DNA of 64,000 bases from Hyphomicrobium sp. ghe19 (lineage in GTDB: Bacteria; Pseudomonadota; Alphaproteobacteria; Rhizobiales; Hyphomicrobiaceae). The first letter of the stretch is position 1. Each line of letters opens with the position of its first letter. The DNA is taken from positions 1,302,001 to 1,366,000 of the forward strand of contig NZ_LR743509.1 in NCBI RefSeq assembly GCF_902712875.1, read 5' to 3'. A program made the position numbers and the translations under genes. This document shows positions 3,862 to 24,437 of the stretch, in pieces. The notes under the pieces were generated by a model that was not told the origin of the DNA, did no database searches, and saw only the letters and a list, made by a program, of their open reading frames with translations.

Positions 3862-4911
3862 ATGAACGACGCGCCAGTTCTATCGAATATCGTCGATGCC
3901 GTCGGCAACACGCCATTGGTGCGTTTGCAAGAGGCCTCGGAGCAGACAGGCTGCACCATTCTCGGCAAGGCCGAGTTCATGAATCCCGGCCAATCCGTGA
4001 AGGACAGGGCTGCAGTATTCCTGATCGAGGACGCGTTGGCCCGGGGCGCGGTTGCGCGCGGGGGCGTCATTGTCGAAGGCACCGCTGGCAACACGGGAAT
4101 TGGATTGACGCTGGTCGGCAAGCATTATGGCCTGCGCAGCGTGATCGTCATTCCCGATACGCAGTCGGCTGAGAAGAAGGCGGCGCTCCGCATCCTGGGA
4201 GCGACGCTCGTCGAGGTGCCGGCGGTTCCCTATGCAAATCCCAACAACTACGTGCACTATTCGCGTCGCCTCGCCGAGGCGATTGCCGCTCGCGAGCCCA
4301 ATGGCGCTTGCTGGGCCAATCAGTTCGACAATCCTGCAAACCGCGACGGCCACGCGCGAACGACGGCCCAGGAGATTTGGCAGCAGACCGGTGGGAAGAT
4401 CGACGGTTTCGTTGCCTCCGTCGGAACCGGGGGGACGCTGGCCGGTATCGCGCTCGGCCTCCGGAACAAGAGCAAAGCCGTCAAGGTCGCGCTTGCTGAT
4501 CCGCCGGGAGCGGCGCTCTATTCTTATTACACATCCGGCGTGCTCAAAGCCGAAGGTACATCGATCACCGAAGGCATCGGGCAGGGCCGGATCACGCGCA
4601 ATCTCGAAGGTTTCACGCCCGACGAAGCTTATCAAATTCCGGACGACGAGGCCGTCGCCATAACGCATCGCCTGCTCGAAGCGGAAGGGATTTGCGTCGG
4701 GGCTTCCACGGGCGTGAACATTGCGGGCGCCATTCGTTTGGCCAAGAGCTTGGGGCCAGGCCACACGATCGTGACGATCCTCTGCGATCACGGAATGCGC
4801 TACCAGTCGAAGCTCTTCAACGCCGAATTCCTGCGGGCGAAGGGGTTGCCGGTGCCAGCTTGGCTCGCGGCAGAGCAACTGGATGTTCCCGACGTTTTCC
4901 TGCCGGGTTGA
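3862..4911 (+). CDS. cysK: cysteine synthase (O-acetylserine sulfhydrylase)
   Basis: This PLP enzyme makes cysteine from O-acetylserine and sulfide. The PLP lysine is Lys47 in NPGQSVKDRAA, the substrate loop is EGTAGNTGIG, and the phosphate-binding glycine loop is GTGGTLAG. The 349-residue length is slightly longer than bacterial CysK (about 310-325) because of a C-terminal tail. A serine acetyltransferase follows 167 bases downstream, and then a packaged cysteine desulfurase, so synthesis and desulfuration of cysteine are encoded side by side. A cystathionine beta-synthase-like activity cannot be excluded by sequence alone. Confidence 0.92.
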   Translation: MNDAPVLSNIVDAVGNTPLVRLQEASEQTGCTILGKAEFMNPGQSVKDRAAVFLIEDALARGAVARGGVIVEGTAGNTGIGLTLVGKHYGLRSVIVIPDTQSAEKKAALRILGATLVEVPAVPYANPNNYVHYSRRLAEAIAAREPNGACWANQFDNPANRDGHARTTAQEIWQQTGGKIDGFVASVGTGGTLAGIALGLRNKSKAVKVALADPPGAALYSYYTSGVLKAEGTSITEGIGQGRITRNLEGFTPDEAYQIPDDEAVAITHRLLEAEGICVGASTGVNIAGAIRLAKSLGPGHTIVTILCDHGMRYQSKLFNAEFLRAKGLPVPAWLAAEQLDVPDVFLPG

Positions 4912-5078
4912 GGTCTCGACACCTAATTCCGGCGTGCACACAGTGTGCGTGGAAAGGCGCGTTTGCGCGTCTGTCGCCCTATCTTCCCGCGGTCATAAGC
5001 AAAGCAGTTATTCTTTGTTCGTTATGACGCCGCGAAAATCTAACATTCTGGACGACTGATGATCCGCACAAATTTCTG

Positions 5079-6065
5079 ATGGTTTCGATCGTGGTAAATG
5101 ATCTTCTTGCGGCCGGCCCCCGTCTGCTTTCAAGCGATTCGAACACGGAAGAACCTGTTGCGCCTTGGAATATCGATACCATCGTTTCCGAACTCAGGGA
5201 GGCGAGGGGGCGGAGCAAAAGAGTGCTCCAAGCGGGCAATCGCCGCGCGCCGCTACCCAGTCCCGAGAAACTTCAACAAGCCATACAGGGCATCTATGCG
5301 TCGCTGTTTCCGCGTCACGCAGGTGCGTTCGATCATAGCGACGAAGGCATCGCGTTCTTTGTCGGCAACACGCTGAATGCGGCACTGCATATCTTGCTCG
5401 ATCAGGTTCGGCGCGAGCATGCTTTCGTCGATGAAGCGCGGGCTTCGCACGAGAGTTCGCTTTCCGCCGAGGAGATCGTAACTGCGTTCTCACGCGGACT
5501 ACCGCAAGTCTATGAGCTGCTGGAAAGCGACATTCGCGCCGCGTACGAAGGCGACCCGTCCGCAAAGAGCACAGAAGAAGTTCTGTTGAGTTTCCCGGGT
5601 ATCAAAGCCATTGTGCATCATCGCGTTGCGCACGCGCTGCATCTTCTCGGTTCGCCGGTCGTTGCGCGCATTATCGCCGAACTCGCGCATTCACAAACCG
5701 GCATCGACATTCATCCGGGCGCGAAGATCGGCGGGAGCTTCTTCATCGATCACGGCACCGGTGTCGTGATCGGCGAGACCGCCGTCATCGGTCAACGCGT
5801 GCGGATTTATCAGGCGGTGACGCTTGGAGCGAAACGGTTCTCCGTCGACGAAGGGGGCGCGCTGGTGAAAGGCGAGCCTCGCCATCCGATCGTCGAGGAC
5901 GACGTCGTCATCTACGCCGGTGCGACCATCCTCGGTCGGATCACGATCGGCAGGGGCTCATCCATCGGCGGCAATATCTGGCTGACGCGTAGCGTTCCGC
6001 CAAACAGCACGATCGTGCAGGCGCTGGCACGCACTGAAACGTTTGACCACGGATCAGGTATCTAA
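5079..6065 (+). CDS. cysE: serine O-acetyltransferase (EpsC/CysE type)
   Basis: The enzyme acetylates serine with acetyl-CoA, the first step of cysteine synthesis. After a helical N-terminal domain of about 190 residues comes a left-handed beta-helix of hexapeptide repeats. These carry IHPGAKIGGSFFIDHGTGVVIGETAVIG, whose Asp-His pair is catalytic in the family, and later GATILGRITIGRGSSIGGN. At 328 residues it matches the long EpsC class rather than short E. coli CysE. Serine acetyltransferases are known neighbours of Family 2A encapsulins, and here it precedes the shell gene by 92 bases. Confidence 0.92.
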   Translation: MVSIVVNDLLAAGPRLLSSDSNTEEPVAPWNIDTIVSELREARGRSKRVLQAGNRRAPLPSPEKLQQAIQGIYASLFPRHAGAFDHSDEGIAFFVGNTLNAALHILLDQVRREHAFVDEARASHESSLSAEEIVTAFSRGLPQVYELLESDIRAAYEGDPSAKSTEEVLLSFPGIKAIVHHRVAHALHLLGSPVVARIIAELAHSQTGIDIHPGAKIGGSFFIDHGTGVVIGETAVIGQRVRIYQAVTLGAKRFSVDEGGALVKGEPRHPIVEDDVVIYAGATILGRITIGRGSSIGGNIWLTRSVPPNSTIVQALARTETFDHGSGI

Positions 6066-6157
6066 TTCCAATATAACATCGTTGACCAGTTCGGAATTTC
6101 TACAGATAAGCGTGCTGACGAAATTTCGCGCTCTAATATAGCAGAGATGGGGATGCC

Positions 6158-7069
6158 ATGGCAGACGAAACCCAAACGGCGCTAGGCGATATTGCGGCAC
6201 GGCAATTAGCCAATGCGACCAAGACCGTACCGCAAATGTCGAGCATCACGCCGCGTTGGCTGGTGCACTTTCTGAGCTGGGTACCGGTCGAAGCGGGCAT
6301 ATATCGCGTCAACAAAGTGCGCGATGCGGACAGCGTCGAAGTGGCATGCTCGGTACGGGATGAGCGCGTTCTGCCGCAAACCTACGTCGATTACATCGAG
6401 AATCCGCGCGAGTATCTTTTGAGCGCTGTGCAGACGGTTCTCGATATTCATACGCGCGTTTCCGATCTCTACAGCGTTCCTCACAACCAGATCAAAGAGC
6501 AGCTTCGCCTGACGATCGAGACGGTGAAGGAGCGCCAGGAGAGCGAACTCATCAATAATAAGGAGTACGGCCTCCTTGCTCATGCTGCGGCCTCGCAGAA
6601 GATCAAAACGCGCTCGGGCCCGCCGACACCTGACGATCTCGACGAGCTGATTGCGAAAGTTTGGAAGGAGCCTGCGTTCTTCCTCGCGCATCCGCAGGCG
6701 ATCGCAGCGTTCGGACGCGAATGCACCCGCCGCGGTGTGCCGCCGCCGACAGTCACTCTATTCGGATCGCCCTTCCTAACGTGGCGCGGCATCCCGCTCA
6801 TTCCCTCCGACAAGCTCGAGGTGAAGGGCGGAAAAACCAACATTCTTCTGATCAGAACCGGTGAAGCCAAGCAGGGCGTCGTCGGTCTCTTCCAGCCGGG
6901 GCTGCCGGGCGAACTGACCAAGGGTCTTTCCGTCCGCTTCATGGGCATCAATGATCAGGCGATCGCCTCCTATCTCGTCTCGCTCTATTGCTCGCTCGCC
7001 GTCCTGACGGACGACGCGCTGGGAGTTCTGGAGAACGTCGAGGTGGGCAAGTATCATGTCTATAGCTAA
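6158..7069 (+). CDS. srpI: Family 2A encapsulin shell protein (SrpI type)
   Basis: I recognise this 303-residue protein as the HK97-fold shell of Family 2A encapsulins. It shows the N-terminal arm with ITPRWLVHFLSWVPVEAGIYRVNKV, the E-loop region NPREYLLSAVQTVLDIHTRVSDLY, and a C-terminal A-domain with LFGSPFLTWRGIPLIPSDK and IRTGEAKQGVVGLFQPGLPGEL. Such proteins assemble in the cytoplasm into icosahedral compartments that enclose a cysteine desulfurase. The ATG at 6158 follows GGGGA. The last 14 bases overlap the start of the desulfurase gene, so shell and cargo are translationally coupled. Family assignment is firm; assembly is inferred. Confidence 0.92.
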   Translation: MADETQTALGDIAARQLANATKTVPQMSSITPRWLVHFLSWVPVEAGIYRVNKVRDADSVEVACSVRDERVLPQTYVDYIENPREYLLSAVQTVLDIHTRVSDLYSVPHNQIKEQLRLTIETVKERQESELINNKEYGLLAHAAASQKIKTRSGPPTPDDLDELIAKVWKEPAFFLAHPQAIAAFGRECTRRGVPPPTVTLFGSPFLTWRGIPLIPSDKLEVKGGKTNILLIRTGEAKQGVVGLFQPGLPGELTKGLSVRFMGINDQAIASYLVSLYCSLAVLTDDALGVLENVEVGKYHVYS

Positions 7070-9272
7070 TCTCGGATCGGGTGCTGCCGACCTCGATGCT
7101 TTGGCGGCAGCGGCGCGTGATCCCAGCGGCGGCGTTCAACCGCCAGCAGGGCTTCCGGACATCGCGACTCTGACGAAGCTCGCCAACCAGTTCTATGCGG
7201 CGCTGCCGGGGCAATCGTTTCCGGTATCCGCAGGGCCGTCGTTGCCTGGGTTCGGCGCTTCGCCGGCTGAGGTCGCCGGGTCGTCAGCGCCGCACGCCGC
7301 GGCGGCTGCCACGTCATCTGTGCCGTCGACCGGAGTTCCGGGCGCGTTGCCGACGGCTGCGATTGGGTCACCGTTCGATCGCTCCGCGATTGATGATCGC
7401 GCATTCGACAGTCTGGTTGGTGCCGCTATTCCTTCGCCGCTTTCGAGCGCCCTTTCCGGGCCTTCGCTGCCCGGCTTCGAAGCGTCTCCGGCGGAAGCGG
7501 CCGGTCAAGCCGTTGCTCAATCAGCGCCAGGCATCGACGCGCCAGCGACTGCCGTTCCGGTTTCGACGCGCGATGTCTCGGTCATCGATCTCAAGGGTGT
7601 CGACACCCTGACGCGAACACCAGATCCGTTGTTGCCATCTAGCGTCGATGCCGGGCCATCGCTTTCCGGCTTCGGCGGCTCTAGGGACATACCGGCTCGA
7701 CCGGAAACATCGCGCTCGGCAGATGCGCTCCCTGGGATCTCCCAGACTTCGCCTCCGCAACCTCCGCCGGCGACGCCGCCGCCGCAGGTGCTCTCCAATC
7801 ATACGGGAATTGAGACGCCGCATTCGGGCGGTTCGATCCGTCAGTACGACCGCATCGCACTTCCGTTTGAAGCCGAGCTCAGATCGCTCTTGGCTCCGCT
7901 CGGAGCTGAGCCGCATGCGCAGAGTCGCGGCGCGGATGCTGGATCGGGATTTTATTTTCTGGATGGCCGAGAGTCGTCAGCGAGCGGTATCAGCGTTCCG
8001 GGGGCGACTGCACCTGCCCGTCTGCCAGCGTCGGGTGGCATCGGTTTCGATGTCGACGGCGTTCGCCGCGATTTTCCTATTCTGAATGAGACGGTCAACG
8101 GCCGTCCGCTCATCTGGTTCGACAACGCGGCGACGACTCAAAAGCCCAAATCGGTCATCGAGCGGCTCAAATATTTCTATGAGCACGAAAACTCGAACAT
8201 TCACCGGGCGGCGCATGAGCTTGCCGCTCGCGCGACCGACGCCTACGAAGGCGCCCGCTCGAAAGTCGCGCGTTTTCTCGGTGCTGGATCGGCTGAAGAG
8301 ATCATCTTCACGCGCGGCGCGACGGAAGCGATCAATCTCGTCGCCGCTACGTTCGGACAGCAGCATATCGGGGCCGGCGACGAAATCGTCGTCACCAATC
8401 TCGAGCATCATGCCAACATCGTACCGTGGCAGCAGCTATGCTTGGCAAAGGGTGCCAAGCTCAGGGTTGCGCCGGTCGATGATTGCGGCGCGCTGTTGCT
8501 CGATGAGTTCGGGAAGCTGCTGAATAGCCGGACCAAGCTGGTCGCGTTCACCCAGGTATCGAACGCGCTCGGTACGATCACGCCGGCCAAGACAATTGTC
8601 GAAATGGCGCATCGCGTCGGCGCTCGCGTGCTTATCGACGGCGCGCAGTCGGTTTCGCACATGAAAGTCGATGTGCAGGACCTCGACGCCGACTTCTTCG
8701 TCTTCTCCGGCCACAAGATCTTCGCCCCGACAGGTATCGGCGTTCTCTACGGCAAGAAGGCGCTGATGGACTCGCTGCCGCCCTATCAGACCGGCGGCAA
8801 CATGATCCGTGATGTGACCTTCGATCGGGTCGAGTTCCACAAGTCGCCGCAGCGGTTCGAGGCGGGCACTGGCAATATCGCCGACGCCGTCGGTTTGGGT
8901 GCAGCGATCGATTACGTCGAACGCATCGGGCTCCAAAACATCGCCGACTACGAGCACAAGTTGCTCGTTTATGCGACGGAGCGGCTTCTGCAGATCCCAG
9001 GTCTCAGGATCATCGGGACCGCGCCCGAAAAGGCGAGCGTGATCTCGCTGACGTTGAAAGGCATACCCAGCGAAGAGATCGGGTCGCGTCTCAACAAGTA
9101 TGGGATCGCGGTGCGTTCCGGGCATCACTGCGCACAGCCGATCCTGAGACGCTTCGGCCAGGAGACGACGGTCCGGCCGTCGTTCGCGTTCTACAATACG
9201 TGCGGTGAAATCGACGTGCTGGTTGGCGCGCTAAAGGACATACAAGCTGAGACTGGTTTGACGCGGCTCTGA
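7056..9272 (+). CDS. encapsulin cargo cysteine desulfurase with long disordered N-terminus
   Basis: Residues 331-738 form a complete SufS-like group II cysteine desulfurase: His452 in LEHHAN stacks on PLP, Lys554 in SGHK binds PLP, and Cys692 in RSGHHCAQP is the persulfide-forming cysteine. Residues 1-330 are rich in Ala, Pro, Ser and Gly with no recognisable fold. This matches the cargo-loading extension described for Family 2A encapsulin desulfurases. Within it a GPSL-x-GF-x-x-S motif occurs three times (residues 59-70, 134-145, 199-210). The enzyme releases sulfur from cysteine as a persulfide, presumably inside the shell encoded just upstream. Confidence 0.93.
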   Translation: MSIANLGSGAADLDALAAAARDPSGGVQPPAGLPDIATLTKLANQFYAALPGQSFPVSAGPSLPGFGASPAEVAGSSAPHAAAAATSSVPSTGVPGALPTAAIGSPFDRSAIDDRAFDSLVGAAIPSPLSSALSGPSLPGFEASPAEAAGQAVAQSAPGIDAPATAVPVSTRDVSVIDLKGVDTLTRTPDPLLPSSVDAGPSLSGFGGSRDIPARPETSRSADALPGISQTSPPQPPPATPPPQVLSNHTGIETPHSGGSIRQYDRIALPFEAELRSLLAPLGAEPHAQSRGADAGSGFYFLDGRESSASGISVPGATAPARLPASGGIGFDVDGVRRDFPILNETVNGRPLIWFDNAATTQKPKSVIERLKYFYEHENSNIHRAAHELAARATDAYEGARSKVARFLGAGSAEEIIFTRGATEAINLVAATFGQQHIGAGDEIVVTNLEHHANIVPWQQLCLAKGAKLRVAPVDDCGALLLDEFGKLLNSRTKLVAFTQVSNALGTITPAKTIVEMAHRVGARVLIDGAQSVSHMKVDVQDLDADFFVFSGHKIFAPTGIGVLYGKKALMDSLPPYQTGGNMIRDVTFDRVEFHKSPQRFEAGTGNIADAVGLGAAIDYVERIGLQNIADYEHKLLVYATERLLQIPGLRIIGTAPEKASVISLTLKGIPSEEIGSRLNKYGIAVRSGHHCAQPILRRFGQETTVRPSFAFYNTCGEIDVLVGALKDIQAETGLTRL
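7230..7265 (+). repeat. cargo motif copy 1 (GPSLPGFGASP)
   Basis: Encodes residues 59-70 of the desulfurase, AGPSLPGFGASP, the first of three near-identical segments in an otherwise diverged low-complexity region. It is a candidate shell-binding peptide. Confidence 0.75.
7455..7490 (+). repeat. cargo motif copy 2 (GPSLPGFEASP)
   Basis: Encodes residues 134-145, SGPSLPGFEASP. It is 75 residues after copy 1 and followed, like copy 1, by AE-x-AG. Confidence 0.75.
7650..7685 (+). repeat. cargo motif copy 3 (GPSLSGFGGSR)
   Basis: Encodes residues 199-210, AGPSLSGFGGSR. It is 65 residues after copy 2 and the most diverged copy. Confidence 0.7.
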
Positions 9273-9896: not shown

Positions 9897-11096
9897 TTAT
9901 TTCTTGAACTTCGCGGCCTCTTCCGAGCCGCTCGTCGCGTTGCCGGCGCTGTAGGAATGGGCGCCGACGCCCGCGAGCTTGCCGCCCTGCACGACGAGAT
10001 ACTCGTTGCGGATCGGCTTCCCTGCGAAGTAGCACTCGAGGATCTCACGCGTACCGGCTGCATAGCGAGTCTGTGCCGAGAGGGATGTGCCCGAGATGTG
10101 GGGCGTCATGCCGTGATGAGGCATGGTGCGCCACGGATGATCCTGCGGCGCGGGCTGCGGGAACCACACGTCGCCCGCGTAGCCAGCGAGCTGCCCGCTT
10201 TCGAGTGCGCGAACGATGGCGTCGCGATCGCAGAGCTTGCCGCGCGCCGTGTTGACCAGATAAGCGCCGCGCTTGAAGTTCTTGAGCGACTTATCGTTGA
10301 TCATGTGCTCGGTTTCGGGATGCAGCGGGCAGTTCAACGTCACCACGTCGCAGACCTTGGTCAGGCTTTCGAGGCTGGTGTGGTGAGTGAGGTTGAGCTC
10401 TTTCTCGACCGCCTCGGGCAGACGATGGCGATCCATGTAGTGCAGGTGGACGTCGTAGGGCTTCAGCAGACGTAGAACGCGGAGGCCGATGCGGCCGGCT
10501 GCAACGGTGCCGATGTGCATGCCTTCGATGTCGTAGGAGCGCGATACGCAATCCGCGATGTTCCAGCCGCCCTTGATCACCCAATTGTAGGAGGGGATGT
10601 AGTTGCGGACGAGTGCGAGCATCTGCATCACGACATGCTCGGCCACGCTATTGCTGTTGCAATAAGTGACTTCCGCGACCGTGATGTTGCGGTCCATGGC
10701 AGCTTGCAAATCGGTGTGATCGGAGCCGATGCCAGCGGTCACGATCATCTTGAGTTTGGGAGCCTTGGCTATGCGTTCGGCGGTCATGTACGCCGGCCAG
10801 AATGGCTGCGAGATGACGATTTCCGCGTCGTGCAGCTCCTGGTCGAGCTTGGAGTTCGCTCCGTCCTTGTCGCTCGTCACGACAAGCGTGTGACCGGCGG
10901 CTTCAAGGAATTTCCGCAGGCCGAGTTCGCCTGAGACGCTGCCGAGCAGCGCGCCGGGTCTGAAATCGATGGCCGACGGTGTCGGCGTGGTCTGGCCATC
11001 CGGATATTTCGTGATCTTCGGGATGTCGTCGCGGGCGTAGGATTTGGGGTAGCCGTCGACGGGATCGTCATAGAGGACACATACGATTTTAGCCAT
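9897..11096 (-). CDS. fdh: NAD-dependent formate dehydrogenase
   Basis: This D-2-hydroxyacid-dehydrogenase-fold enzyme oxidises formate to CO2 with NAD+, the last energy-yielding step of methylotrophy. The 399-residue protein carries Asn147 in TYCNSNS, Arg285 in NTARGKL, Gln314 and His333 in TPHISGTS, which line up one residue off the catalytic set of the Pseudomonas sp. 101 enzyme (N146, R284, Q313, H332). The NAD-binding loop is GTVAAGRIG. The ATG at 11096 is preceded by AAGGAGAT, so the longer frame to 11381 is not used. A LysR gene lies upstream in the same direction. Confidence 0.95.
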   Translation of the reverse strand: MAKIVCVLYDDPVDGYPKSYARDDIPKITKYPDGQTTPTPSAIDFRPGALLGSVSGELGLRKFLEAAGHTLVVTSDKDGANSKLDQELHDAEIVISQPFWPAYMTAERIAKAPKLKMIVTAGIGSDHTDLQAAMDRNITVAEVTYCNSNSVAEHVVMQMLALVRNYIPSYNWVIKGGWNIADCVSRSYDIEGMHIGTVAAGRIGLRVLRLLKPYDVHLHYMDRHRLPEAVEKELNLTHHTSLESLTKVCDVVTLNCPLHPETEHMINDKSLKNFKRGAYLVNTARGKLCDRDAIVRALESGQLAGYAGDVWFPQPAPQDHPWRTMPHHGMTPHISGTSLSAQTRYAAGTREILECYFAGKPIRNEYLVVQGGKLAGVGAHSYSAGNATSGSEEAAKFKK

Positions 11097-11340
11097 GTTG
11101 ATCTCCTTCATGGAATTGGCCATGAGGCGGCGCTTCGTCAGGGGGCACCGGACGAATGACATATAGTCATGGAGGTGAGACGTTTCGTGGCCTTCGCCGA
11201 CCGGCGTCGCTCCTCGCGCTTCCTCGCCCTGACAGCTGGCTCTCTGTGGAAGCCTTTCGTTTGCCGGGGCACGCGGAATGTCGAGGCAGCACCGTTTTGG
11301 GTCAAACGAATGGTATTTGATGGCTGATTGATGCCGTCGA

Positions 11341-14339: not shown

Positions 14340-14969
14340 TCATCCCCACACCCGTCCCGAGCGCGGCGTGTCGATTTGATAGTCAGTGGCATGACGAGTA
14401 AAGAATTCGCGTCCGAAGCGGCGCGCGGATCCGACCGGATCGCCGGGATCGCGCGTAACCTCACCGCGCGAATTGCCGTAGCCGTGAACAACTCCGACGA
14501 AGGTCGAGCGCGTATAACGCGAAAACTCTTGAATCTGGCTGACGATACCACCCGACACCATCGGAAAGGTCTCTTCCGAATTAAGCACTAGTCCGATGCG
14601 CTTGTTCTTCATCCCCTCGATAACGTCCGCGGATCGTGGATAGGAAGCCGCGTAGTAGCAGAACGTGCGGTCGAAGAAGGCCTTGAGTTGAGCGGAAACG
14701 CCGTACCAGTAAATGGGTGTCGCGGCGATGAAGCCGTCGGCCGGCAAGTAGGATTCAAGGAACACCGGCCCAAATCCATCGTCGATGGCGCATGTGCCGT
14801 CGGGTTTGCGGCATTGCCGGCAGTCGTGCAGGAACGATGCCAAAAAATCACTGGCATAAACGAGCTCGGCGTCATGTCCTGCTTCGACGATGCCATCGCG
14901 AACGGCCGCCGCAAGAGTGGCCGAGTTTCCGTTCCGTCGCGGACTAGATGACAGAATGAGTGCTCTCAT
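14340..14969 (-). CDS. NAD(P)H-dependent FMN reductase/flavodoxin-like protein
   Basis: The ATG at 14969 follows GAGGAA and gives a 209-residue flavodoxin-fold protein. The FMN phosphate loop is SSSPRRNGNS at the N-terminus, and ATPIYWYGVSAQLKAFFDR marks the isoalloxazine side. A Cys-rich insert, CRQCRKPDGTC, is common in this subgroup. It probably reduces FMN or a quinone-like substrate. An in-frame ATG at 15014 exists but lacks a ribosome site and adds residues not typical of the fold. Confidence 0.85.
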   Translation of the reverse strand: MRALILSSSPRRNGNSATLAAAVRDGIVEAGHDAELVYASDFLASFLHDCRQCRKPDGTCAIDDGFGPVFLESYLPADGFIAATPIYWYGVSAQLKAFFDRTFCYYAASYPRSADVIEGMKNKRIGLVLNSEETFPMVSGGIVSQIQEFSRYTRSTFVGVVHGYGNSRGEVTRDPGDPVGSARRFGREFFTRHATDYQIDTPRSGRVWG

Positions 14970-15084
14970 TAATCGGTTCCTCAGAAGAAAGCCGGCAGCG
15001 TTGCCGGCCGACAAGAAGGCAGTTTTCGGTTAGCGCGTCGATCGACGGATTGCCAGCAGCGAAAGCTTTCCTTTGGTCTAACGT

Positions 15085-15235
15085 GTGCGTAAACGCGCGG
15101 GGGCTTCGAAGGGCCGGTGGAACGTTAGCAACCGGCTGCCCGTGAGCGATCGTGTGAGCTATCTGCCTGGCGCCGACAGTGAGGTGCTGGCCTTAACCGA
15201 GGGCTGGGTTCACGTAGCCTGGATTAATTACGCGC
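15085..15235 (+). ncRNA. ssrS: candidate 6S RNA (ssrS-like)
   Basis: This 151-base stretch lies in the 460-base gap before ftfL. GTGCGTAA at 15085-15092 pairs along its whole length (one G-U) with TTACGCGC at 15228-15235, forming a closing stem. Inside, GCCGGT and ACCGGC (15113-15136) form a perfect hairpin. The 3' arm, GGCCTTAACCGAGGG...GGTTCACGTAGCCTGG, resembles the 3' arm of E. coli 6S RNA. 6S genes commonly sit beside folate C1 genes, which fits ftfL downstream. A covariance-model hit is needed; another structured leader is the alternative. Confidence 0.5.
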
Positions 15236-15475
15236 TAAAAATTCAAACTCGACGGGCAGAGAGGGCACCGAACTACGGGTCACGCTGACCGATGCAAGTC
15301 CCTAAATGTCGGGAATATTGGCCCCCCCATCGAAAGTTGCTTGGAGGGAACGAAAGTTTCGTGATAGTAGACGTTCCCGGAAAGTGGAGTCGCGCAAATC
15401 GCCGCCAATTCGGACAGCGGGCCTTCGCCTGCGCGGATTGCTCAGTGTTTTCGCGTCCTGAGGGGAAGCATCAGC

Positions 15476-17152
15476 ATGTCCGTGAAGTCCGATATCGAAA
15501 TTGCACGCGAAGCAAAGATTAAGCCCATCGCGGAGGTTGCCGCCAAGGTCGGCGTTCCATCGCACGCACTCATTCCTTATGGGTGGACCAAGGCCAAAAT
15601 TTCGTCCGACTATCTCAAAGACATTGAAAGTTTCAGCGACGGCAAGGTCATCCTTGTAACCGCCATCAGTCCGACGCCGGCGGGCGAGGGCAAGACGACG
15701 ACGACCGTCGGTCTCAGCGACGGCTTGAACCACATCGGCAAGAAGGCGATCGCGGCGCTGCGCGAACCGTCGCTCGGGCCATGCTTCGGCGTCAAGGGCG
15801 GCGCGGCGGGCGGCGGCTACGCCCAGGTCGTGCCGATGGAGGACATCAACCTCCACTTCACCGGCGACTTCCATGCGATCACGAGCGCCCACAATCTGCT
15901 GTCGGCGTTGATCGACAACCACATCTACTGGGGCAACGCGCTGGGCATCGACCAGCGGCGCATCGGCTGGAAGCGCGTGCTCGACATGAACGATCGCGCG
16001 CTGCGCTCGATCGTCAATTCCTTGGGCGGTGTTTCGAACGGCTTCCCGCGCGAGGACGGCTTCGATATCACCGTCGCCTCCGAGGTCATGGCGATCCTCT
16101 GCCTGTCGAAGGATCTGAAGGATCTCGAGAACCGTCTCGGCAACATCGTCGTCGCCTACACGCGCGATAAGAAGCCGATCCGCGCTCGCGACTTGAAGGC
16201 CGACGGCGCCATGACGGTGCTCTTGAAGGACGCCTTGCAGCCGAACCTGGTGCAGACGCTCGAGAACAACCCGGTGTTCATCCACGGCGGTCCGTTCGCC
16301 AACATCGCGCATGGCTGCAACTCGGTGCTGGCGACGAAAACGGCGATGAAACTTGCCGATTACGTCGTGACCGAAGCCGGTTTCGGCGCCGACTTGGGTG
16401 CCGAGAAGTTCTTCGACATCAAGTGCCGCAAGGCCGGCATCGCGCCGTCCGTCGTCGTCATCGTCGCCACCGTCCGCGCGCTGAAGATGCACGGCGGCAT
16501 CGCCAAGGATGATCTCAAGGCCGAGAACGCGGCAGCGGTCGCCAAGGGCTGCGAAAACCTCAAGCGGCACATCGAGAACGTCAACAAGTTCGGCGTGCCG
16601 GCGGTCGTCGCGGTCAACAAGTTCATCACCGACACCGACGCTGAAATCGCCGAGGTTCAGAAAGCGGCCGAAAGCATGGGCACGAAGGCGTTCCTGTGCA
16701 CGCACTGGGCCGATGGCGGCAAGGGCACGGAGGGGCTGGCGCATCACGTCGTCAAGGTGATCGACGAAGGCAAGGCGAACTTCAAGCCGCTCTATCCCGA
16801 CGACATGAAGCTGCGCGACAAGGTGAAGACGATCGCGACGGAAATCTATCGCGCCGCCGACATCTCCTGCGATGCGAGCGTCGAAAATCAGTTCAAGGAT
16901 CTGGAAGCCGCGGGCTTCGGGCACTTCCCGGTGTGCATGGCGAAGACGCAGTACTCGTTCTCGACCGACGCCTCGAAGCGCGGCGCGCCGACGGGCCACA
17001 TCGTGCCGATCCGCGAGCTCAGACTCTCCGCCGGCGCCGAGTTCATCGTCGTCGTCACGGGTGAGATCATGACGATGCCGGGCCTGCCGAAGGTTCCATC
17101 CGCCGACTCGATCCGCCTCGACGACAAGGGCCAGATCCAGGGACTGTTCTAA
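15476..17152 (+). CDS. ftfL: formate--tetrahydrofolate ligase
   Basis: The enzyme joins formate to tetrahydrofolate with ATP, feeding C1 units into biosynthesis and, in serine-cycle methylotrophs, into assimilation. The ATP loop is [13 protein letters not shown] near residues 66-77, and the substrate region [19 protein letters not shown] follows. The 558-residue length is the normal FTHFS size and the product is complete. GAGGGGAAG lies a few bases before the ATG. A probable stem-loop follows the gene, and folD starts 149 bases further on. Confidence 0.96.
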
Positions 17153-19382: not shown

Positions 19383-19610
19383 CTAAAGTCCAGGCCGATC
19401 TACGCCGGATTCAAATAGGCACGCGGATTGAGTGCGCAGCCAGTGCTAGATCGCGTTCGCGCTGCAGCATAGGTGCTGTCAATGCTTTCCATTTGAATTT
19501 TGGACGTTTTATAAAACAGTCCTGCGCCGTTACCTTCCTCACGACAACTTAGATCGAGCAAAACATAGATTTTGCAGACTTTGTCGGGAGGTAGAGCCTT
19601 GGAAGGTGCG

Positions 19611-20495
19611 ATGTCGAAATCGCGCGACGCTTCGTCTTTCTCGCAACAAAATTTGCCGAGTGGGAACACCGAAGCCGCGCCAATATATATTCCGCCGAAA
19701 GAAAGATTCCTCGAATTTCGAAGGCAGCCGAGCGCGCAGCGGGCTTCGGTGTTGGCGTGCATCGGAGCGTTGTTGTTCCTTGGTGTGTGGGAGTTCGGCC
19801 ACTATCTGACGCCGGCATCGGCCCGCAAGTTCTTTCCGTCCATCGGCGAGGTGGGCTCCGCCCTTTATGTCTTGTTCGCCGAGCGCAACTTCCTGCATGA
19901 CGTCTCGGTGAGCTGTTGGCGAATTTTCGTCAGCTTCCTGGCAGCTTCCGCGATTGCTGTGCCGATCGGCATTCTGATGGGAAGTTTCGGCAACGTTCGC
20001 GCTCTCTTGAATCCGACGCTGACGGCCTGGCGATATCTGCCTGCCGCTTCGTTCATTCCGCTCCTCCTCGTTTGGTTTGGTCCGACCGATCAAGCGAAGA
20101 TTGCGCTGCTCTTCATCGGCGTCATCTTCTTCCTGATCTCGCTGGTGCTGGACAATACGACCGCCATCCAGAAGGAGTTTGTGGAAGCTGGACTGACGAT
20201 GGGCGCATCACGCCGCACCATTCTCACAGGCATCGTGGTGCCGGCAGCTCTTCCAGCGATCTTCGATTCCATGCGCAACATGGTTGCGGTGAGCTGGACG
20301 TATCTCGTCATCGCCGAAATCGTCGGAGCGCAGGATGGCATTGGCGCCGTGATGATGCGTGCCGGACGTTTTCTCAACGTCGACGTGATCATGGCGGGCA
20401 TCGTTACCATCGGTGCACTGGGGCTTCTCACAGATCTCATTTTCCGGGGCATTTGCCGCGCGCTGTTCCCGTGGAACGTCGAGCGGAGGTCGTAA
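19611..20495 (+). CDS. ABC transporter permease (SsuC/TauC/NMT1-associated type)
   Basis: The 294-residue protein has about six hydrophobic segments and the inner-membrane component signature EFVEAGLTMGASRRTILTGIV (in part), the EAA loop that contacts the ATPase. This class imports sulfonates, pyrimidine precursors, nitrate or small nitrogen compounds. GGAAGG precedes the ATG at 19611; in-frame TTG codons upstream are weaker starts. The ATPase gene starts two bases after the stop codon, so the two are tightly coupled. Confidence 0.88.
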   Translation: MSKSRDASSFSQQNLPSGNTEAAPIYIPPKERFLEFRRQPSAQRASVLACIGALLFLGVWEFGHYLTPASARKFFPSIGEVGSALYVLFAERNFLHDVSVSCWRIFVSFLAASAIAVPIGILMGSFGNVRALLNPTLTAWRYLPAASFIPLLLVWFGPTDQAKIALLFIGVIFFLISLVLDNTTAIQKEFVEAGLTMGASRRTILTGIVVPAALPAIFDSMRNMVAVSWTYLVIAEIVGAQDGIGAVMMRAGRFLNVDVIMAGIVTIGALGLLTDLIFRGICRALFPWNVERRS

Positions 20496-20496
20496 C

Positions 20497-21303
20497 ATGA
20501 ACATCGTCGCAAAGGATTTTACGCCGGTGACAACCGTTCCACCCCTCAAGGCGTCCCGCATCAGCAAGGAGTATCTGGGCGGGTCGTTCAAGGCGCTCGA
20601 CGACGTGTCGTTCGAGCTGCAGGAGAACCAAATCACAGCGTTCGTCGGGCCGTCAGGGTGCGGAAAGACGACGATGCTGCGGATCATCGCGGGGCTCGAA
20701 TATCCCACACGCGGACGGCTGGAAGTTTTCGGCAAGAACGTGCAGGGACCTGGTCCCGATCGCGGCATGATCTTCCAAGCCTATACGTCGTTCCCCTGGC
20801 TCACCGCCATGCAGAACGTCGAATACGGCATGAAAATTCTCAAGGTTCCGGCTGCAGAACGCCGCGAACGCACGATGAATTTTCTCAAGCTCGTACATCT
20901 CGAGAAGTTTGCGGACACCTATCCGCGCAGTTTGTCCGGAGGCATGAAGCAACGCGTCGCTCTCGCTCGAACGCTGGCGCAGAACCCGGCGATCATCCTG
21001 ATGGATGAGCCTTTCGGCGCGTTGGACGCACAGGTGCGTTGGGAGATGCAGGAACTCATGATCGAGTTGATCGAGCGTGAGAAGAAGACGGTCGTCGCAA
21101 TCACGCACGACATCGAGGAAGCCATCTATCTGGCTGATCGCATCATTTTCTTCAGCCGGCAGCCAGGCCGCATCAAAGCCGATATTCCGCTCACTTTCAA
21201 AGGCGGACGGCGCATCAAGCAGAAAGAAGAGCTGCTGGAACTGCCGGGGTATGCGGAGCTCGAGCGTCAGCTCTTTGCGATGATGCGCGAGGAAATCAAA
21301 TAG
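20497..21303 (+). CDS. ABC transporter ATP-binding protein
   Basis: All ABC ATPase motifs are present: Walker A GPSGCGKTT, signature LSGGMKQR, Walker B ILMDEPFGALD, and the switch histidine in AITHDIEEA. The family is the nitrate/sulfonate/taurine type (SsuB/TauB). The ATG at 20497 is preceded by CGGAGG; the upstream extension to 20413 would lie within the permease gene and is rejected. The 268-residue product is of normal length. It energises import with the permease and binding protein on either side. Confidence 0.92.
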   Translation: MNIVAKDFTPVTTVPPLKASRISKEYLGGSFKALDDVSFELQENQITAFVGPSGCGKTTMLRIIAGLEYPTRGRLEVFGKNVQGPGPDRGMIFQAYTSFPWLTAMQNVEYGMKILKVPAAERRERTMNFLKLVHLEKFADTYPRSLSGGMKQRVALARTLAQNPAIILMDEPFGALDAQVRWEMQELMIELIEREKKTVVAITHDIEEAIYLADRIIFFSRQPGRIKADIPLTFKGGRRIKQKEELLELPGYAELERQLFAMMREEIK

Positions 21304-21363
21304 CCAATCAGCTTCGACGACGTGAATCCAAAGGATCGAAGATCGTTCAGGAGACGGCATAAA

Positions 21364-22509
21364 ATGAAAAACAAGTCGTTTACGAACACGTTTCTCGCTC
21401 TCGGGTTGCTGGCGACTGCGGCGCCAGTGGCCGCGCCTCGGGCGAGCGCAGCAGAAAAAGTCAGCGTGGCGATCATATCGTTCTCGCCTTATGCGCCCTG
21501 GTACATCGTCAAGGCGAAAGGCCTCGCCAAGGATATCGATCTCGACGTCAAAATCATTGAGGGCATAACCGAAAAGAATGCGGCCATTACGTCAGGCCAG
21601 GTCCAATGCATGAACAACACCATGGACAGCATGGTGTTGGCGCGCGCGGGCGACCTGCCGGTCAAGGTCGTCGCGTTCTCGGATATGTCCTACGGCCTCG
21701 ACAAGATGGTGGTCACGAAGGACATCAATTCTGTTGAAGATTTCAAGGGTAAGAAGTTTGGCGCCGACTACGGATTTCTCAATCATATGTGGATGCTGCT
21801 GACCCTCAAGAGGGCCGGCATCGACATGAAGGAGCTGCACCACGCGGTCATGCTTCCCCAGGAAAGCGCTGCTGCTTTCGCCAGCGGCGGCACGGACATC
21901 GACGTCAACTACGATCCGTTCGCCGCCCAATCCTTGAAGCGCGATGGAGCCAAGATATTCAAATCGAGCCTTACGGATCGCACTTGGGAACGCGGGCTCA
22001 TATCCGATGCCATCGCCTGCAACGAAGCATGGCTCGCCGAGAAGCCGGCGGTCGCCAAGGAGCTGCTTCGCGCGTGGTTCGAGGCGGTCAACTGGTGGAA
22101 GGAGAACCCGGAGGAAGGTGATGCGATCGTCGCCGCCGGTCTTTCGTGGCCCGTTGCCGACGTGAAGCTCAATCAGTACGGCGCGATCATGCTCAACATC
22201 AACCAGAACATGGGTGCACTTGGCCTGCAGGGCGGCAAACCTCTTTGCGAAAGCCTGCCTGAGGAAGCTCCTCGCGCTCCTGATGGCAAAGGCTGGGGTT
22301 CGCTGTTTAACGGGCCCGATTGCGCTGCCGGTTATGCGGAAGCGACCTGGGATCTATTCAGCGACACGTATCTCGCCGCCGGCGTTTCCCAGAAGAAGGT
22401 GAAATCGCGCGAGGCGTTCGATTCATCGATCCTCTCCGCGCTCGCGGCGGACGGCTTTGCGGCCAAGTACCCGTCGAACAAATGGATCGGCCGGCTCGGT
22501 CCTCAGTAG
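21364..22509 (+). CDS. NMT1/ThiY-like substrate-binding protein
   Basis: From the ATG at 21364 (after CAGGAGA) the 381-residue product begins with a signal peptide of about 30 residues ending ASAAEK. It continues as an NMT1/ThiY-type periplasmic binding protein, with SFSPYAPWYIVKAKGLAKD and the hinge segment TSGQVQCMNNTMDSM. Ligands of this family include small nitrogenous cations, thiamine precursors and sulfonates. The neighbouring ureohydrolase suggests a guanidino or related compound. It supplies the ligand specificity of the importer. Confidence 0.88.
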   Translation: MKNKSFTNTFLALGLLATAAPVAAPRASAAEKVSVAIISFSPYAPWYIVKAKGLAKDIDLDVKIIEGITEKNAAITSGQVQCMNNTMDSMVLARAGDLPVKVVAFSDMSYGLDKMVVTKDINSVEDFKGKKFGADYGFLNHMWMLLTLKRAGIDMKELHHAVMLPQESAAAFASGGTDIDVNYDPFAAQSLKRDGAKIFKSSLTDRTWERGLISDAIACNEAWLAEKPAVAKELLRAWFEAVNWWKENPEEGDAIVAAGLSWPVADVKLNQYGAIMLNINQNMGALGLQGGKPLCESLPEEAPRAPDGKGWGSLFNGPDCAAGYAEATWDLFSDTYLAAGVSQKKVKSREAFDSSILSALAADGFAAKYPSNKWIGRLGPQ

Positions 22510-22572
22510 TGACGGCAGGACCCATCAACTCCGCGATTGTCTGCATAACTAAACAGTAAAGGTCATTCCGAA

Positions 22573-23802
22573 ATGGCGCGCAGTCCTAAAGATCACGATC
22601 ACGACCATCCCCATACGCATCGTCACGGCCACTCGCATGGCGTCCGGCGCGAAGATACGCATGGCGCGAAGAGCATGGAGACGTTGTCTCGCATCTCCCA
22701 GATCAAGCAGGGCGAAGAAGTGTCTCGATCACTTCAGTATGGGCTTGAGGCGGCCTCATCCGTCGTCGATCGCAACATCTCGTTGTTCAGCCGTGGCCAT
22801 CAGCCGGCGTTCGCCGGGATCAATACCTTCATGAAGGCGCCGTACTGCGAGGACATCCGCAAGATCGGCGACTACCAGGCGGCTTTTGTCGGCGCGCCAT
22901 TCGACTCGGCGACGACCTACAGGCCCGGTACGCGCTTTGGGCCGCAAGCGGTTCGCCGGATCTCGGCGCTCTACGACGGCTACTGGTTCGACGGCGGTGT
23001 CGATATCTATGAGGAACTCGATCTTTGCGATGCCGGCGACATCTTCGTCATTCCGGGCAACATCGAGAAGACGTTCGACCAGGTGACGAAGGCCGTTTCG
23101 CACATTTACACGTCGGGCGTCTTCCCGATCATCTGCGGCGGCGATCACAGCTTGGGCTTCCCCAACGTGCGGGGCATTGCTCCGCACATCGACGGCAACG
23201 TCGGCATCATCCACATCGACCGGCACATCGATATCCAAGAGAAGGATATGGATGAGCGCATGCATACGACGCCTTGGTTCTGGACGACGAACGAGGGAAC
23301 GCACGCCTCGCATCGCGACCATAGCCACATGCACGATGTCGGTTTGCCCAACTGCCATCCGAAGAATCTCGTGCAGATCGGCATCGGCGGCTGGTACGGC
23401 AATCGTCCGGGAACGGCGGTTGCGAAGCGCCGCGGAACGAGCGTGCTGACGATGCACGACGTGCAGCATTTCGGCCCGAAGAAGGCCGCCGAAATTGCGC
23501 TCGAGATGGCCTGGGAAGGCTGCAAGGCGGTCTACCTGTCGTTCGATATCGACTCGATCGATCCGGGGTTTGCACCCGGCACCGGTTCGCCGGAGCCCGG
23601 CGGGCTGCTGCCGCGCGAAGCTTTCGAGATGATTCATACGATAGCAGCGGAAGGCCTATGCGGCATGGAAGTCGTCGAGGTGTCGCCGCCGTACGACGTC
23701 AACGACAACACCGCGCAGCTCGCCTGCCGGGTCGTGCTCGATGTGCTTGGAACTCTGGTGGCGAATGGCAAGCTCGGCCATCGCAGCAAAGTCATGAAAT
23801 AG
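22573..23802 (+). CDS. histidine-rich ureohydrolase (agmatinase/guanidine hydrolase-like)
   Basis: This arginase-superfamily enzyme of 409 residues has the dinuclear metal motifs ICGGDHS (His192), IHIDRHID (Asp216, His218, Asp220) and SFDIDSIDP (Asp325, Asp327), then GTGSPEPGGL. The usual D-A-H-x-D is D-R-H-x-D here, a feature I recall from the cyanobacterial nickel-dependent guanidine hydrolase Sll1077. Residues 8-22 hold eight histidines alternating with other residues, and a second His cluster lies at 244-262. It should release urea or ammonia from an imported guanidino compound; the exact substrate is unknown. A HupE/UreJ gene follows by 11 bases. Confidence 0.88.
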   Translation: MARSPKDHDHDHPHTHRHGHSHGVRREDTHGAKSMETLSRISQIKQGEEVSRSLQYGLEAASSVVDRNISLFSRGHQPAFAGINTFMKAPYCEDIRKIGDYQAAFVGAPFDSATTYRPGTRFGPQAVRRISALYDGYWFDGGVDIYEELDLCDAGDIFVIPGNIEKTFDQVTKAVSHIYTSGVFPIICGGDHSLGFPNVRGIAPHIDGNVGIIHIDRHIDIQEKDMDERMHTTPWFWTTNEGTHASHRDHSHMHDVGLPNCHPKNLVQIGIGGWYGNRPGTAVAKRRGTSVLTMHDVQHFGPKKAAEIALEMAWEGCKAVYLSFDIDSIDPGFAPGTGSPEPGGLLPREAFEMIHTIAAEGLCGMEVVEVSPPYDVNDNTAQLACRVVLDVLGTLVANGKLGHRSKVMK

Positions 23803-23813
23803 GAGGGCGTACG

Positions 23814-24437
23814 ATGAGACATTCACGCGTGCAAAACGTTCTAAAGGCCATCGGCGCGGGCTCGATCCTGATGGTGGTTGCGGCCGCTCCAGCCTCGGCT
23901 CACGTCGGGCTCGGTGCGGTCCACACGTTCAGTCAGGGCTTTCTGCATCCGATGAGCGGCATCGACCATATCATCGCAATGGTGGCCGTCGGTTTCTTTG
24001 CAATGAACGTGGGAGGGGCAGGGCGCTGGCTCGTGCCTACGGCATTCGTCGCGGCGATGATGTTTGGCGGCTGGCTCGGCTATGAGGGTTGGCCGCTGCC
24101 AATGGTCGAACAAGGTATCGGCTTGTCCGTCGTTGCCTTGAGCTTGGCAGTGGCCGTCGGCGTTCGACCGCCGACCGTCATTGCGATGGCGGCGGTTGGG
24201 CTGTTCGCTGTTTTCCATGGTCACGCTCATGGTAACGAGGGAGCTGGGCTCGGCTTCGCATTCCTTCCCTATGCTGCGGGATTCGTTGTCGCGACGGCGC
24301 TCCTGCACATTTCGGGAATGGCCTCGAGCGTCTGTCTCGATCAGCTGAAGCCATCGCTCGCGCTAGCGCTCAAGAGAGCAACAGGTGTAATCGGCGCGGT
24401 GGCGGGCGCGTCTCTGCTTCTCGGGTTGATGAGCTGA
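23814..24437 (+). CDS. hupE: HupE/UreJ nickel permease-like protein
   Basis: The 207-residue protein has a signal-like N-terminus ending ASAHVG, then FLHPMSGIDHIIAMV, the HP-x5-DH motif of HupE/UreJ, a second His patch FHGHAHGNEG, and about six hydrophobic segments. Family members bring nickel into the cell for hydrogenase or urease. No hydrogenase or urease gene is in this window, so the nickel is presumably for the ureohydrolase just upstream. AGGAGGG overlaps the ureohydrolase stop and drives translation from ATG 23814. Confidence 0.88.
   Translation: MRHSRVQNVLKAIGAGSILMVVAAAPASAHVGLGAVHTFSQGFLHPMSGIDHIIAMVAVGFFAMNVGGAGRWLVPTAFVAAMMFGGWLGYEGWPLPMVEQGIGLSVVALSLAVAVGVRPPTVIAMAAVGLFAVFHGHAHGNEGAGLGFAFLPYAAGFVVATALLHISGMASSVCLDQLKPSLALALKRATGVIGAVAGASLLLGLMS

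Follow-up and report, generated by a model that had tools for sequence, protein, structure and literature searches.

A predicted Family 2A encapsulin with a cysteine desulfurase cargo next to serine acetyltransferase and cysteine synthase genes in Hyphomicrobium sp. ghe19

The DNA examined here is a 64,000-nucleotide stretch of Hyphomicrobium sp. ghe19 (contig NZ_LR743509.1, positions 1,302,001 to 1,366,000), referred to as the window; coordinates are positions within it, and genome positions are identified as such. Four genes lie in a row on its forward strand: cysK (3862..4911), cysE (5079..6065), a shell gene (6158..7069) and a cargo gene (7056..9272). The shell gene encodes a 303-residue Family 2A encapsulin shell protein, which passes the dedicated NCBI curated model NF041162 with 538.3 bits (cut-off 380). 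The cargo gene encodes a 738-residue cysteine desulfurase, which passes NF041166 with 849.8 bits (cut-off 800). Both open reading frames were found as described in an earlier note on this DNA, which had read them as an encapsulin and its desulfurase cargo. Taken together, they very probably constitute an encapsulin system of Family 2A and of the cysteine-desulfurase class, in which the desulfurase works within the shell. No second Family 2A shell gene was found in the 4.6-Mb contig that holds the window.

The Pfam SrpI-like family, scoring 365 bits, is the sole Pfam match of the shell protein, and the cyclic-nucleotide-binding domain that marks Family 2B was absent in the same search. The Family 2B model is also passed (445.4 bits, cut-off 400), with a score lower than that of the 2A model and with the best stretch at positions 210-449 of its 450, i.e. 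its shell part. A search of solved chains placed 8t6r (515.2 bits) first among shells, followed by SrpI of Synechococcus elongatus PCC 7942 (6x8m, 511 bits). Residues 5-302 align to SrpI ungapped over 298 residues, with an offset of one. SrpI residues G194 and P196, assigned to the fivefold pore, and F262 and Y273, placed near cargo density at the threefold axis (PMC8049743, cited here and below from its available excerpts), correspond to G193, P195, F261 and Y272 of the window protein. SrpI R192 aligns with R191 and SrpI R304 with S303; both arginines are poorly conserved according to the same excerpts. By analogy with solved relatives, the 303-residue protein would be expected to self-assemble into an icosahedral shell.

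The cargo consists of a long N-terminal region followed by a SufS-type catalytic domain that starts at approximately residue 331. The SufS model TIGR01979 is passed with 557.5 bits (cut-off 475.1), and the top-scoring solved desulfurase, 8kg1, matches residues 331-729 with 612 bits. Sequence context identifies the lysine that binds pyridoxal phosphate (PLP), K554 in FSGHK (8715..8717), and the catalytic cysteine, C692 in the RSGHHC catalytic loop (9129..9131); the motifs EHHANIVPW and RPSFAFYNT are likewise present. The active-site residues are thus in place, in agreement with the earlier note, and their roles are those of the corresponding elements in SufS enzymes.

The N-terminal region (7056..8069) spans 338 residues, 54% of them Pro, Ala, Ser or Gly, compared with a median of 223 and a range of 117-351 among 87 distinct relatives. 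It contains both of the N-terminal cargo motifs described in the excerpts of PMC8049743: LTKLANQFYA at residue 39 (7170..7199; published LARLANEFFS) and AGSGFYFLDG at residue 295 (7938..7967; published AASPYYFLDG). Each was scored with a position matrix that left out the window alone, its near relatives staying in the training set, and gave p = 0.005, the lowest value possible with 200 shuffles. Each motif also passes p of 0.01 in 83 of the 87 relatives, the same sequences that trained the matrix. Three short repeats occur between the two motifs, GPSLPGF (7233..7253 and 7458..7478) and GPSLSGF (7653..7673). Copies 1 and 2 recur in L002 and L125, and a single copy is found in L012 and L119. Despite these three short protein repeats, no tandem repeats were detected in the first 20 kb of the window. 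The desulfurase is predicted to be enclosed in the shell.

Shell and cargo genes share 14 base pairs (bp) at 7056..7069, in agreement with the overlap reported previously. The occurrence of this arrangement in relatives was assessed in 80 named loci, the best 80 of at least 573 confirmed matches to the shell, many of which end at contig edges. The cargo is in view in 76 of these, the remaining four stopping at a contig edge, and one further locus lacks a start in range. A 14-bp overlap is possible in 44 of the resulting 75 loci, an upper estimate because the script favoured the 14-bp start wherever available, and some overlap is possible in 70. The survey also took in 20 further loci, seven of which duplicate named ones and one of which is the window. 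Judging by its recurrence in relatives, the overlap is not a chance feature.

Upstream of the shell gene and in the same direction lie the two genes that the earlier note had described as a cysteine synthase and a serine acetyltransferase, and both assignments were borne out. The cysK product is a PRK10717-type cysteine synthase (NF007989, 530.5 bits, cut-off 387), and that of cysE a serine O-acetyltransferase (NF041874, 166.8 bits, cut-off 150) whose C-terminus is a Gly-Ile tail. In serine acetyltransferases, this tail mediates binding to cysteine synthase, and it is present in all 21 loci read, the window included. Neighbours in the 80 named loci were counted by searching for each gene type with a single BLAST query. 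Seventy-three of the loci show a cysE relative, the one in L073 being a 36% match located downstream of the cargo, and this confirms the proposed link between Family 2A and serine acetyltransferases. Since cysE and the cargo are so widely retained, cysE, shell and cargo can be regarded as a conserved core. In contrast, the cysteine synthase type of the window is in view in only two of the 80 loci, and on these counts cysK is a lineage-specific neighbour outside the core.

The description of the system as embedded in a cysteine-synthesis operon is therefore half right: cysE belongs to the conserved neighbourhood, whereas with cysK included the claim applies to gene order in this lineage only. 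A single four-gene transcript is putative, and separate promoters are possible because the same-strand gaps of 167 bp (cysK-cysE) and 92 bp (cysE-shell) leave space for them. Other genes in view in the named loci include a sulfate-type binding protein (39 of 80) and a second cysteine synthase type (25 of 80). In the g10 genomes L128, L129 and L131, this second type lies upstream of a shell-cargo pair that has no cysE match. Sulfate transporter genes also recur beside the core, as do genes for EAL-domain proteins (25 of 80, some matches weak) and DUF2325 proteins (17 of 80); many of these three kinds of neighbour are from Methylophilaceae.

Within the family, a shell gene was found in 29 of the 103 Hyphomicrobiaceae genomes searched, including 14 of 22 from Hyphomicrobium, with eight lacking it. 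The closest shell relatives among the matches listed are from this genus, and Hyphomicrobium facile DSM 1565 (L002, identical to L116) is essentially the same system, with an identical shell, 99% identity in the cargo catalytic domain, 97% in cysE and cysK, and the same four-gene order. The 14 Hyphomicrobium loci (L114-L127, one for each genome of the genus with a shell) were read at length. All have cysE upstream of the shell, with variation in what precedes it. A sulfate-binding protein gene is located upstream of cysE in eight (approximately 1 kb away in L122), three of which (L118, L126, L127) carry a divergent gene for a CysB-family regulator. The window's cysteine synthase type is found in five: three have it directly upstream of cysE (the window, L116 and L125), and in the other two (L120 and L124) it stands behind a gene for a CysB-family regulator. 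L119 has neither gene upstream. TIGR00971 (cut-off 155.5) confirms the binding proteins of two Hyphomicrobium loci, L118 and L115 (scores of 412.7 and 420.6 bits for the pair), and that of L132 from another genus of the family, the three spanning 401.6-420.6 bits, while PRK12684 confirms the L118 regulator (417.5 bits, cut-off 402). As the core of these congeners often lies behind a sulfate-binding protein gene, and sometimes a CysB-family regulator gene, it seems to be tied to sulfur supply.

A tree of the shell and cargo domain (24 rows) separates two cysteine-synthase groups, each with support of 100/98, and places both among the binding-protein loci, several of the joining forks being weak. 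This topology suggests two separate exchanges of the upstream gene. The PRK10717-type cysteine synthase was also considered as a marker of the encapsulin and was rejected: among the Hyphomicrobiaceae genomes, matches above the cut-off are present in 21 of the 29 that have the shell and in 50 of the 74 that lack it (p = 0.81). An earlier apparent link came from 28 chosen genomes and was gone in the full family comparison. Two oddities concern this gene elsewhere in the family. In G045 (L143), it adjoins a second desulfurase-like gene (14592-15833) that is 53% identical to the cargo catalytic domain. In G050 (C25:8962-9971), a relative is split into overlapping matches of 78% and 69% identity, which may reflect a disrupted gene or a fault in the assembly.

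The intergenic regions yielded features that we consider regulatory leads and not results. An inverted repeat upstream of cysE (4981..5039, arms 4981-4998 and 5022-5039, 78% complementary) is a possible operator, and its inner part reappears in the close relatives L116 and L125. The cysE-shell gap (6066..6157) varies little in length: of 21 Hyphomicrobiaceae loci read, 19 have 92-95 bp and two have 84-85 bp, and the additional locus L008 has 113 bp. In seven of 24 loci the gap holds a perfect dyad, CTTAT-N11-ATAAG, always 68-70 bp before the shell gene and with no second perfect match anywhere in the same loci; the individual p-values of 0.002-0.007 are not independent, because the seven loci are closely related. 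The window lacks this dyad, its best attempt at TTAT-N11-ATAA having three mismatches of eight, and the dyads of other congeners, located close to this position, differ from it. Allowing up to one mismatch adds six matches, in five of those seven loci and in others: one inside a CysA gene (L118), three within the cargo region (L120, L124, L126) and two in the cysE-shell gap closer to the shell (L123, L127). A role of the dyad as CysB-family operator is unsupported, as no match with up to one mismatch precedes the sulfate-binding-protein or regulator genes.

Among 72 distinct cysE-shell gaps of named loci in other bacteria, 13 contain a small helix-turn-helix gene (L022, L024, L031, L043, L045, L046, L056, L057, L071, L075, L076, L078 and L079), the L024 copy of which was tested and matches Pfam HTH_3. 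Ten of these 13 loci carry the motif G[AG]TGGCTATAGCA[GT]GTTGA approximately 100 bp before the shell gene. Scans of the window itself revealed five terminator-like sites between 3500 and 9600, no excess over the shuffle mean of 5.8, and four sigma-70-like promoter sites (1.9 expected, standard deviation 1.2), none convincingly placed. No RNA family, riboswitches included, was found in the window at the Rfam gathering threshold.

One of the closest known systems is the SrpI/CyD encapsulin of S. elongatus (6x8m, 6x8t; PMC8049743), which resembles the window system in its shell, its pore and cargo-site residues and both cargo motifs, and differs in a shorter cargo N-terminal region (225 compared to 338 residues). 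The excerpts of that study describe cargo loading through the N-terminal domain, desulfurase turnover roughly sevenfold faster upon encapsulation, and induction of SrpI by sulfur starvation. In the available part of the survey PMC8346489, 1281 Family 2A operons with desulfurase cargo are counted, and serine acetyltransferases and rhodaneses are the most enriched accessory genes. As in those operons, a serine acetyltransferase stands beside shell and cargo in the window; unlike them, the window lacks a rhodanese and has a PRK10717-type cysteine synthase. Sulfur storage has been reported for the system of 8t6r, not for that of the window. We take 8t6r to be the Acinetobacter baumannii system, whose Family 2A encapsulin is said by Benisch et al. 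(2024) to store elemental sulfur. Benisch et al. is cited in PMC10960027. No paper naming both encapsulin and Hyphomicrobium was found in the literature searched.

These comparisons lead to the following proposed mechanism. The shell protein would assemble into a small icosahedral shell, into which the desulfurase would be drawn by its long flexible N-terminal region via the two conserved motifs, and translation of the overlapping genes may help to match the amounts of shell and cargo. Cytoplasmic cysteine would pass through narrow pores and be cleaved by the SufS-type enzyme, yielding alanine and sulfane sulfur. The latter would most likely be kept in the shell, probably in elemental form, until taken by reductants or an acceptor. 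The neighbouring serine acetyltransferase could feed the cysteine pathway, with the cysteine synthase holding the upstream place given to a sulfate-binding protein in many congeners; delivery of locally made cysteine to a shell that stores or releases sulfur, as proposed in the earlier note, would be in line with this. By analogy with the 8t6r system, we consider storage of sulfur in the shell somewhat better than an even bet.

The genome encodes the same enzyme classes a second time. Outside the locus lie genes for a second serine acetyltransferase scoring 231.2 bits and a further desulfurase of the SufS class scoring 482.3 bits. The PLP beta family gave two additional strong hits there, and one of them (L146) shares 52% identity with the second cysteine synthase type. 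The genome also encodes two sulfate-binding proteins, as well as two regulators close to CysB (58% and 56% identity). Because of these copies, the window locus looks like an extra, dedicated set.

Several observations weigh against a sulfur-storing encapsulin supplied by its neighbours. The cysE product falls under the cut-off of one of the two curated models, TIGR01172 (166.7 compared to 210.65 bits), and the clade of the window is without the sulfate-binding-protein and CysB-family neighbours seen in congeners. No acceptor protein is encoded near shell and cargo. Data on expression, assembly or activity in this organism were not found, and elemental-sulfur storage leans on the report for another family member.

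One alternative, which we regard as unlikely, is that the shell is a delivery device and not a store, limiting access to the desulfurase so that one particular rhodanese receives the sulfur. Such a delivery model, together with the enrichment of rhodaneses, appears in the available part of PMC8346489, and among the 80 named loci, 16 show a rhodanese relative. In the window genome, a Pfam search (E up to 0.001) located five rhodanese domains in four open frames, the nearest at genome position 1654548, approximately 340 kb from the shell gene, which upholds the earlier observation that none lies nearby. The acceptor gene would hence lie at a distance, and the two-domain rhodanese L134 (genome 2943925-2944929) is the strongest candidate. 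Ten Hyphomicrobiaceae loci that have the window's cysteine synthase type at a site unlinked to the encapsulin were read, and in six of them it adjoins a two-domain rhodanese (L135, L137, L138, L139, L140 and L144, not L141, L142, L143 or L145). In L143 a rhodanese is found approximately 11 kb from the cysteine synthase gene, and the lack of one in L141 carries little weight because the contig is short. L134 is 85% identical to an unlinked copy in G041, to which the rhodaneses beside the cysteine synthase in L137-L139 are 73-78% identical; this similarity makes L134 a candidate acceptor, no more. However, of 20 Hyphomicrobiaceae genomes with a shell, just one (G039) has a rhodanese 10 kb or less from it, contig ends narrowing the view in G057 and G061, which indicates that the family does not keep a rhodanese partner there. 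Furthermore, in the family comparison given above, the distribution of this cysteine synthase type does not follow that of the encapsulin.

It appears improbable that the shell serves in cysteine or sulfide detoxification, clearing surplus cysteine whenever more sulfate is taken up and more cysteine made than the cell needs. The gene linkage to serine acetyltransferase, joined in congeners by a sulfate-binding protein, would fit feast or famine alike, whereas the starvation induction of SrpI in S. elongatus (excerpts of PMC8049743) is the opposite of what a pure detoxifier would display. Quite improbable, in our view, is a PRK10717-type enzyme that consumes cysteine or uses thiosulfate, making the locus one that degrades cysteine instead of supplying it. 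In favour of it, the name of the cysteine synthase family is a matter of annotation, six of the ten other placements read have the gene paired with a rhodanese, and the genome has another cysteine synthase type in L146. Nevertheless, the product matches NF007989, named cysteine synthase A, above its cut-off, compared to 97.6 bits with the L-cysteine desulfhydrase Cds1 model (cut-off 600). The nearest solved chains also bear the name cysteine synthase (5i7w, 518.8 bits), and the adjacent acetyltransferase keeps its Gly-Ile tail. A joint scheme, in which the Gly-Ile-tailed acetyltransferase and the cysteine synthase that replaced a sulfate-binding protein act as a dedicated complex supplying the shell, the cysE-shell gap confers sulfur-responsive control on the shell-cargo pair and the unlinked two-domain rhodanese removes the sulfur, is highly improbable as a whole.

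Beyond the locus, a gene for nicotinamide adenine dinucleotide-dependent formate dehydrogenase (9897-11216, minus strand; 709.9 bits, cut-off 329) is convergent with the cargo gene and is followed by two genes for LysR-type regulators. Further along (19572-24437), a row of genes encodes a taurine/nitrate-type ATP-binding cassette transporter, an arginase-family enzyme (22573-23802) whose N-terminus is rich in His, and a HupE/UreJ protein, an arrangement that we take to resemble guanidine hydrolase clusters.

The type of system described here is already known, and the window holds a good new example of a recognised shell. New are the details of the lineage: the sulfate-binding protein swapped for a cysteine synthase, the dyad of the congeners and the candidate unlinked rhodanese. 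The cultured members of Hyphomicrobium are methylotrophs. The predicted sulfur-handling nanocompartment is placed in a genus with cultured members and varying upstream genes, and this natural variation, with either a binding protein or a cysteine synthase upstream and no rhodanese alongside, may help to trace the source of the compartment's cysteine and the fate of its sulfur.

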